Under the pieces are notes generated by a model. It worked only from the letters and a program-made list of their open reading frames with translations. It ran no database searches and had not been told where the DNA came from. From assembly GCF_025558485.1 (NCBI RefSeq), contig NZ_CP102930.1, positions 3,038,001-3,102,000 on the forward strand: a stretch of 64,000 nt of DNA, given 5' to 3'. Numbering within the stretch: position 1 is the stretch's first letter; each line of letters starts with the position of its first letter. The DNA is from Bdellovibrio bacteriovorus. GTDB taxonomy: Bacteria; Bdellovibrionota; Bdellovibrionia; Bdellovibrionales; Bdellovibrionaceae. Shown piece after piece: positions 56,307 to 57,182 of the stretch. The position numbers were made by a program, and so were the translations under genes.

Positions 56307-56792
56307 ATGAAAAAGCCAGCCATCGTTTTCTTCTCAGTTCTTTTCTCTGCGATCATTGTGCAGGCGGCACCTGTGGTCAGTAAAACCACCACGGAAGTTC
56401 TGGGCTTTTCCAATATTCTGGGAACCGATGCCACTTCCTGTAATTACTCTGTTGAAAACCGCAAAGATCTAAAAGGCCGCGATGAAGTGGTGGTGTCTTT
56501 GACTTCGGACAAGGAAACATCCATCACAGATTCGATCCGCATTCCTGCTGACAAGCTGCCTTTGAAAGAGGGCGTCCTGCAAGTGCGCCCGGGTTTAAGC
56601 ATCACTTATAAAAAAGGTGTCCTGACCAAAAAAGAAAAGCTGCCGTCTGAAGGACCATCCGGTCAGGACTATCAGGTGATGATGGTGAAGGTCAGTCCGG
56701 ATCTGAAAGTGGTTTCTTTGGGCTACGCTTTGGATTCAGTAAAAAGCATCTTCTCTGAAAAGGCCCTGGCCGAAATCAACTGTACGTTCTAG
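56307..56792 (+). CDS. Secreted hypothetical protein
   Basis: 161 residues from the ATG at 56307, GTGGGAG before it; the 40-residue longer reading is rejected. Signal peptide about 19 residues (cleavage after VQA). Beta-rich mature chain with two cysteines (TSCNYS and the terminal INCTF), probably a disulphide. The 164-base gap upstream includes a TATACT box near 56269. Unknown function. Confidence 0.75.
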   Translation: MKKPAIVFFSVLFSAIIVQAAPVVSKTTTEVLGFSNILGTDATSCNYSVENRKDLKGRDEVVVSLTSDKETSITDSIRIPADKLPLKEGVLQVRPGLSITYKKGVLTKKEKLPSEGPSGQDYQVMMVKVSPDLKVVSLGYALDSVKSIFSEKALAEINCTF

Positions 56793-56811
56793 ATGTGGCT
56801 TTAAAAATGCA

Positions 56812-56845
56812 AAAGCGAGATTCGCCTTCGCCAATCTCGCTTTTG
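56812..56845 (+). terminator. Intrinsic terminator (12-bp perfect stem)
   Basis: AAAAGCGAGATT, ten-base loop, AATCTCGCTTTT. Ends the gene at 56307. The stem's 3' T4 is the only T-run. Confidence 0.75.
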
Positions 56846-56852
56846 GTGGATC

Positions 56853-56877
56853 TCCTGTCCGAAATAACAGGAGGTGT
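56853..56877 (+). promoter_or_regulatory. Hairpin sequestering a perfect Shine-Dalgarno sequence
   Basis: CTCCTGT (56853-56859) pairs with ACAGGAG (56868-56874). The Shine-Dalgarno AGGAGGTG (56870-56877) of the 36-residue ORF lies in the right arm. Pairing would silence translation. Confidence 0.65.
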
Positions 56878-56880
56878 CCG

Positions 56881-56991
56881 ATGCGCAAACCCCAATACTT
56901 GCGTTATCGACGCATTTTGAAGATTACTAAAGAGCTTTTGCTTATTCTGGCTATGATTTTAACGATCATTCTCCAGTTGAAACAACTTTAA
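56881..56991 (+). CDS. 36-residue basic, single-helix membrane peptide (possible type I toxin-like)
   Basis: The frame runs ATG 56881 to TAA 56989-56991. The first 17 residues are basic (MRKPQYLRYRRILKITK). The next about 16 are a hydrophobic helix (ELLLILAMILTIILQ), then LKQL. A perfect AGGAGGTG lies four bases before the ATG, hidden in a hairpin. Small size, basic-hydrophobic layout and a locked Shine-Dalgarno are typical of type I toxin peptides and small regulatory membrane proteins. No known family name is recognised. Immediately followed by a structured RNA and terminator. Whether it is translated is unknown. Confidence 0.5.
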   Translation: MRKPQYLRYRRILKITKELLLILAMILTIILQLKQL

Positions 56992-57182
56992 GAGATCTTT
57001 GAAGCGGCCTCCGGCGTGTATCAGGCCCATGGACCAGTGATTGGGAGACGGGCCTGCGAACCTCGGAAGGGGAACACATGGACGGGGCTGGCGGGGGCAC
57101 CTGTGTACTGTTGCGGTCTTCTGCGGCTCTAAGTAATTTCTAAAACAAAAAAACCGCAGTTTTACTTGCGGGTTTTTTTATT
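56992..57182 (+). ncRNA. Structured non-coding RNA candidate with terminator
   Basis: No ORF fits 56992-57145, yet the sequence is GC-rich and pairs strongly. CAGGCCC pairs with GGGCCTG (7 bp), CCTC-GGAA-GGGG makes a tetraloop, and ACACA(T)GG pairs with CCTGTGT. AGAG..GAAG near the start can close with CTTC..CTCT near the end. An intrinsic terminator (CCGCA/TGCGG plus T7) ends it at 57151-57182. Position between convergent genes suggests an independent RNA. 6S RNA is possible (closed outer stem, size about 150), but I could not align it. Not tmRNA, SRP or RNase P. Confidence 0.5.

Follow-up and report, generated by a model that had tools for sequence, protein, structure and literature searches.

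We found that a short open reading frame (ORF) at positions 56881-56991 (+ strand) of the window, the 64,000-nucleotide stretch of Bdellovibrio bacteriovorus DNA analyzed here, is, judged from its sequence, one copy of an undescribed peptide family with well over 100 copies. Computational comparison of the copies revealed selection on the ORF, pairing between the 5' and 3' ends of the predicted mRNA, and promoter-like signals on both strands. We consider it probable (a probability of about 0.74) that the locus is a copy of a type I toxin-antitoxin-like family that would be close to aapA/IsoA and hok/Sok in mechanism. An earlier sequence-only reading had proposed a conditional membrane peptide with a type I toxin-like layout, silenced by RNA structure. 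This proposal is supported by the conserved frame (dN/dS ~0.29), the paired Shine-Dalgarno (SD) sequence, and the covarying 5'-3' pairing. The whole feature spans approximately 56797-57102, more than the extent given in that reading, because a conserved 3' RNA segment comes after the ORF.

If this reading is correct, Bdellovibrionota would gain its first type I toxin-antitoxin-like family, according to the literature and libraries searched. A 2025 paper lists Proteobacteria, Firmicutes and Tenericutes as the only groups with type I systems so far, to which it adds Cyanobacteria (PMC12390103). End-to-end silencing of an mRNA, in the style of aapA and hok, would then recur for a peptide family without a known match, with a minus-strand promoter-like site concealed within synonymous codons.

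The peptide and its family

The ORF encodes a 36-residue basic membrane peptide (MRKPQYLRYRRILKITKELLLILAMILTIILQLKQL). The 36-codon frame, with the basic head and one hydrophobic helix described in the sequence-only reading, is present at 56881-56991. The peptide has a net charge of +7 and a best 17-residue Kyte-Doolittle mean (KD17) of 2.36. The 113 distinct peptides of the family are 30-45 residues long, with a median charge of +5 and a median KD17 of 2.29. KD17 was at least 1.6 in 108 of the 113, as expected of small hydrophobic peptides with a transmembrane helix. The peptide is conserved where the nucleotide sequence is not, and the median dN/dS among copies of the genus (~0.29) indicates purifying selection. 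The sequence-only reading had made its case depend on conservation of the frame, and the frame is kept across many genera.

Searching the window's own genome with the peptide identified two further places besides the window locus, and a DNA search identified a block of ~130 nt common to the copies. Copies were found at the DNA level in 11 of 24 genomes of the genus. About one third of the genus, including HD100, had no detectable copy; the published HD100 transcriptome is therefore of no use for this family. A peptide profile search gave matches in 35 of 66 genomes of the taxonomic family, and a broader profile gave matches in 49 of 141 genomes of the order (Bdellovibrionales). When 369 genomes of the phylum were searched by profile, all matches belonged to this order. 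Genomes with the family contain 1-10 copies, intergenic wherever inspected and sometimes in tandem. The genes surrounding the tandem arrays are unrelated, and we rejected a linked partner gene there.

The earlier failure to recognize a family extended to every library searched. The peptide family had no match in Pfam, NCBIfam, PHROGs or PADLOC, and a PDB profile search with the peptide gave nothing meaningful. The element had no match in Rfam, and the Hok protein and hok RNA families were likewise unmatched (Rfam, Pfam, NCBIfam, PHROGs). No match to the element was found in phage records, nor did its DNA pattern match the named genomes.

In the analyses below, patterns were noticed in a first set of copies. 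A second set was fetched later, mostly from other genera and families, and is the fairer test since the first had served to spot the patterns. The copies are related to each other, and the controls preserve composition or codon usage, ignoring phylogeny.

Predicted pairing of the mRNA ends and masking of the Shine-Dalgarno sequence

In aapA/IsoA of Helicobacter pylori, the full-length mRNA is silenced by long-distance pairing between its 5' and 3' ends (PMC6733600). The ends of hok mRNA also pair, following the tac/fbi logic (PMC6733600 and general knowledge). We found a comparable arrangement in the family. In the window, the 5' strand GCCTTCGCCAATCTCG (56824-56839, + strand) is predicted to pair with the 3' strand CGGGGCTGGCGGGGGC (57083-57098, + strand), and the folded RNA from 56822 to 57102 has 13.9 expected 5'-3' pairs. 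With the downstream terminator included, a competing local fold was preferred and the expected pairs decreased from 13.9 to 8.0.

We used swap tests in which each copy's 5' region was scored against its own 3' region and against those of other copies. The self score was 29.1 for the 63 copies of the discovery set, compared to a permuted mean of 20.6 (sd 0.52, maximum 22.8, 10,000 permutations; z ~17), and 28.1 for the 50 copies of the independent set, compared to 19.3 (sd 0.47, maximum 21.2; z ~19), in a test that is conservative insofar as related copies lift the cross scores and whose statistics ignore the tree. The helix formed in all 77 of the copies selected for a detectable 5'-3' match, and the median predicted transcript of these copies was 281 nt. 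Pairing of the mRNA ends, the feature that marks the class of hok/Sok and aapA/IsoA, is conserved in the family with copy-specific covariation.

The 3' segment also contains a conserved stem-loop (CAGGCCC..GGGCCTG; 57022-57056, + strand) in which 5 of 12 consensus pairs changed on both sides with the pair kept. There was no Rfam hit at gathering score in 56992-57175, so we rejected 6S or another known RNA at this position. The weak Rfam E-value hits were mostly terminator matches, and the fold of this segment alone was unremarkable (z -0.58). In distant copies (e.g. L067, L074 and L075), the 3' segment has a conserved CAACGTGTACA-like sequence followed by CCAAGGnnGGGAC..AAATCCC.

The RNA from 56790 to 57000 is predicted to fold more stably than 200 of 200 dinucleotide shuffles (z -4.5). 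The SD sequence AGGAGGTG (56869-56876, + strand) and the 7-bp hairpin that would mask it (hairpin 2, CTCCTGT/ACAGGAG; 56852-56873, + strand) are located as the sequence-only reading described. An SD-like site precedes the ORF in every copy (119/119; GGAG in 108) and is usually paired in predicted folds, in line with the hairpin conservation on which that reading also depended. In predicted minimum-energy folds, the SD was paired in 111/114 copies, compared to ~91/114 with shuffled upstream sequence. Self versus swapped pairing of hairpin 2 was 16.1 versus 14.7 (sd 0.24), and 15.5 versus 14.5 (sd 0.27) in the distant subset. Covariation of this hairpin thus seems modest, notably in distant copies, and we regard the SD hairpin by itself as the weaker portion of the evidence. 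Removing the 3' end in silico left the SD closed (mean unpaired 0.22 for full-length and 0.19 for truncated RNA, by equilibrium folding only). The simple activation step of hok was therefore not reproduced in silico.

Promoter-like signals on both strands

GG-N10-GC is the -24/-12 spacing of sigma54 promoters. We found such a block, GGCTTTAAAAATGC, at 56797-56810 (+ strand), using column conservation and a spacing test. When 53 non-redundant copies were aligned on AAATGC, conservation began abruptly at GG and nothing was conserved upstream. The two bases of GG were present in 47/53 and 52/53 copies and, ten nucleotides on, those of GC in 53/53 and 49/53. In the independent set, GG-N10-GCW was found in 38 of 57 copies, compared to 3-6 when the spacing was set to 6-9 or 11-14. 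Of 66 genomes, 60 have rpoN, among them that of the window. Given this spacing and the presence of rpoN, we suggest that the block is a sigma54 promoter. The predicted mRNA start is at 56822-56824 (+ strand), 12 nt after the C of the -12 element as sigma54 spacing would have it, and corresponds to position 15 of the column profile, a G in 40/53 copies. A start at ~56822 would fall within hairpin 1 (below), immediately 5' of its loop strand (GCCTTCGCC).

It is rather unlikely, though worth weighing, that the block is something other than a sigma54 promoter and that the start lies elsewhere, through upstream read-through or another sigma factor; this would be compatible with any of the readings discussed below. 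The -12 element reads ATGC rather than TTGC, some copies (L042, L044, L176) have no block, and a search of 85 upstream flanks for an activator (enhancer) site gave no clearly enriched word or palindrome. However, the spacing was exactly 10 in the independent set, conservation sets in abruptly at GG, and several copies lie directly after a terminator (L028, L031), all of which argue for a promoter at the block. In L042, L044 and L176, another palindromic repeat (AAGCCCCGAAGGGG...GGCAGGA.GCC) stands where the block would be, taking over at an identical point in all three, as though through insertion of a REP-like element.

The sequence-only reading saw no antisense gene opposite the ORF. We found a promoter-like site within the ORF on the minus strand (56905-56931) that makes a candidate antisense gene plausible. 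By comparison with the FliA consensus, the candidate -35 element is TTTAG (56927-56931, - strand) and the candidate -10 element, 16 nt away, is TCGATA (56905-56910, - strand). The published Bdellovibrio FliA (sigma28) consensus is TTAAG-N16-CCGATA (PMC3627812), from which the window's TTTAG-N16-TCGATA differs by one base in each box. The full -10 varies among copies (CCGATA, TCGATA, CCGAATA), so the match to the consensus holds for the core only.

This site coincides with constrained codons. The codon before R10 ends in T in 61/61 copies, R10 is CGG in 43/61 (11% expected from codon usage in the window), and the codon for residue 16 ends in T in 54/61. Read on the minus strand, these codons give TTTAG-N16-(C/T)CGA, or TTWAG-N16-YCGA as the family form. 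TTWAG-N17-CGA was present on the minus strand of 45 of 66 ORFs, compared to 7.5 (maximum 12) after synonymous recoding, and in the later set in 14 of 58 compared to 2.4 (maximum 7). At other spacings, the count was 0-6. These comparisons indicate that synonymous codon choice preserves a minus-strand FliA-like site.

The promoter-like site is directed at hairpin 1 (56809-56845, - strand), a covarying, terminator-like hairpin with a U-tract (stem, then TTTTGCATTTTT). The arms of hairpin 1 covary (self 22.5 versus permuted 13.9, sd 0.36, n = 84). Since the 5' arm is outside the predicted mRNA, this covariation favors a minus-strand terminator. The terminator scan scored hairpin 1 on the minus strand only, and we rejected the idea that it terminates the upstream gene on the plus strand. 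The sequence-only reading had placed the ORF between two terminators. The downstream one stands, as an intrinsic terminator at 57154-57171 (+ strand), but because hairpin 1 resembles a terminator solely in the minus-strand orientation, the plus-strand unit is not bracketed by two plus-strand terminators. Taking promoter and terminator as its ends, a candidate antisense RNA of ~95 nt (56803-56897, - strand) would lie opposite the mRNA's 5' end, its SD and its start codon.

We also considered APsRNA3 of HD100 as an observed antisense RNA of the family and rejected it, as it maps to a flagellin locus and has no more in common with the family than an 11-base motif, which chance also produces in coding sequence. 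At flagellin loci (L097, L107, L109 and L110; HD100 and the window's own genome), the genes are flanked by structured repeats in which CAACGTGTACA and numerous GGTCCAG-type boxes occur, and the published sRNA APsRNA3 starts at these repeats.

Proposed mechanism, relatives and alternatives

In the type I toxin-antitoxin-like reading, transcription, the antisense RNA, the sigma factors and toxicity are all predicted from the features above. A sigma54-dependent promoter would produce an mRNA of ~280 nt, counted as far as the 3' pairing strand, for a basic membrane peptide of 30-45 residues. This mRNA would be silent from birth, its 5' end paired with its 3' end and its SD masked by the local hairpin. 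A sigma28-like promoter inside the ORF would produce an antisense RNA of ~95 nt that ends at hairpin 1 and overlaps the mRNA from its 5' end through the SD to the AUG. In sequence, the 3' strand of the mRNA is similar to the antisense loop, both being complementary to the mRNA 5' end, and so would compete with the antisense RNA, like fbi in hok. Once silencing was lifted, the peptide would enter the inner membrane and cause depolarization.

It is possible, although we hold this only tentatively and think the odds are against it, that the family is a module linked to the predation cycle, with the antitoxin RNA made by FliA (sigma28) and the toxin mRNA by sigma54. The balance would then shift once a predator comes out of attack phase or does not carry it through. 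Through sigma28, the sigma factor of that phase in Bdellovibrio, a silenced membrane peptide would be connected in a testable way with the predatory life cycle. Transcription of the two strands of one toxin-antitoxin family would in that case be divided between two alternative sigma factors.

TisB/IstR-1 and DinQ/AgrB of E. coli each combine an antisense RNA with a short membrane peptide, hydrophobic or amphipathic, whose primary transcript is translationally inert. They are under SOS control and are activated by 5' processing. The short membrane peptide, silent primary transcript and antisense RNA have predicted counterparts here; in contrast, the conserved silencing feature here is 5'-3' closure, and LexA control was not noticed. 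The family shares with hok/Sok (plasmid R1 and the E. coli chromosome) the pairing of the mRNA ends, a (candidate) antisense RNA over the leader, and several partly degenerate chromosomal copies. It differs in its promoters, in having no sequence match, and in having no overlapping mok-like frame. An upstream ATG at 56808 was rejected as the start of a mok-like leader peptide because it lies before the predicted start and because its frame is shifted relative to the ORF in the window and broken or shifted in many copies.

The resemblance to aapA/IsoA includes a small membrane peptide (the toxin in aapA), multiple chromosomal copies and, as predictions here, SD-masking hairpins and 5'-3' long-distance pairing of the mRNA. 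It extends to a cis-overlapping antisense RNA (~80 nt for IsoA, PMC6733600; a candidate of ~95 nt here) and to synonymous codon constraint within the ORF, as reported for aapA (PMC6733600). Unlike aapA/IsoA, the family is in another phylum, its peptide is unmatched in the family libraries, its mRNA has a predicted sigma54-type promoter and its antisense RNA a sigma28-type site, and its SD is still masked in silico after removal of the 3' end.

The peptide might instead be a small membrane protein under regulation but without a toxin's role, for example a modulator of stress or the envelope, silenced at the RNA level in the same manner and perhaps with the antisense RNA as well. Everything in the sequence that speaks for a silenced membrane peptide agrees equally well with this, and multiple copies per genome could serve as isoforms. 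However, patchy presence, scattered sites, truncated and stop-broken copies, and double silencing typify type I toxin loci, and a needed modulator is expected to be more constant. We think a non-toxin role unlikely. A FliA-driven attack-phase sRNA from the minus strand could also be the main product, with the peptide secondary or vestigial. The minus-strand promoter-like site and terminator are conserved, and several truncated copies retain exactly this unit. Against this, the peptide is under purifying selection and conserved where nucleotides are not, and other remnants consist of the 3' part alone, so that either side may be the one retained; such an RNA is very unlikely to be the main product. 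We give almost no credence to a repeated extragenic or mobile element whose hairpins merely resemble gene control. The copies are indeed dispersed and intergenic, at 1-10 per genome, and the hairpin-1-like terminator also occurs alone, but codon-level selection, an SD in every tested copy, and copy-specific 5'-3' covariation are unexpected of an inert repeat.

Several loci retain part of the element. L005 and L006 (own genome), L037 and L039 keep the 5' half (promoter block, hairpins, ORF start and antisense promoter) and lose the remainder soon after ACTAAAG; they could be orphan antisense genes. We dropped an argument that truncated copies prove selection on the antisense unit, since the search that gave these four 5'-only copies had queried the 5' half only, and a search with the 3' module then gave 3'-only or internally deleted copies. 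L207 (G017), in a position apparently orthologous to the full copy L028, and L206 (G014) are remnants with the 3' module and neither the 5' part nor the ORF. L029 (G005) keeps all of the RNA features, and a TAA stop at codon 6 breaks its peptide frame. In the window's own genome, L007 and L008 are hairpin-1-like terminators without an ORF, one of them after the end of a transketolase-like gene.
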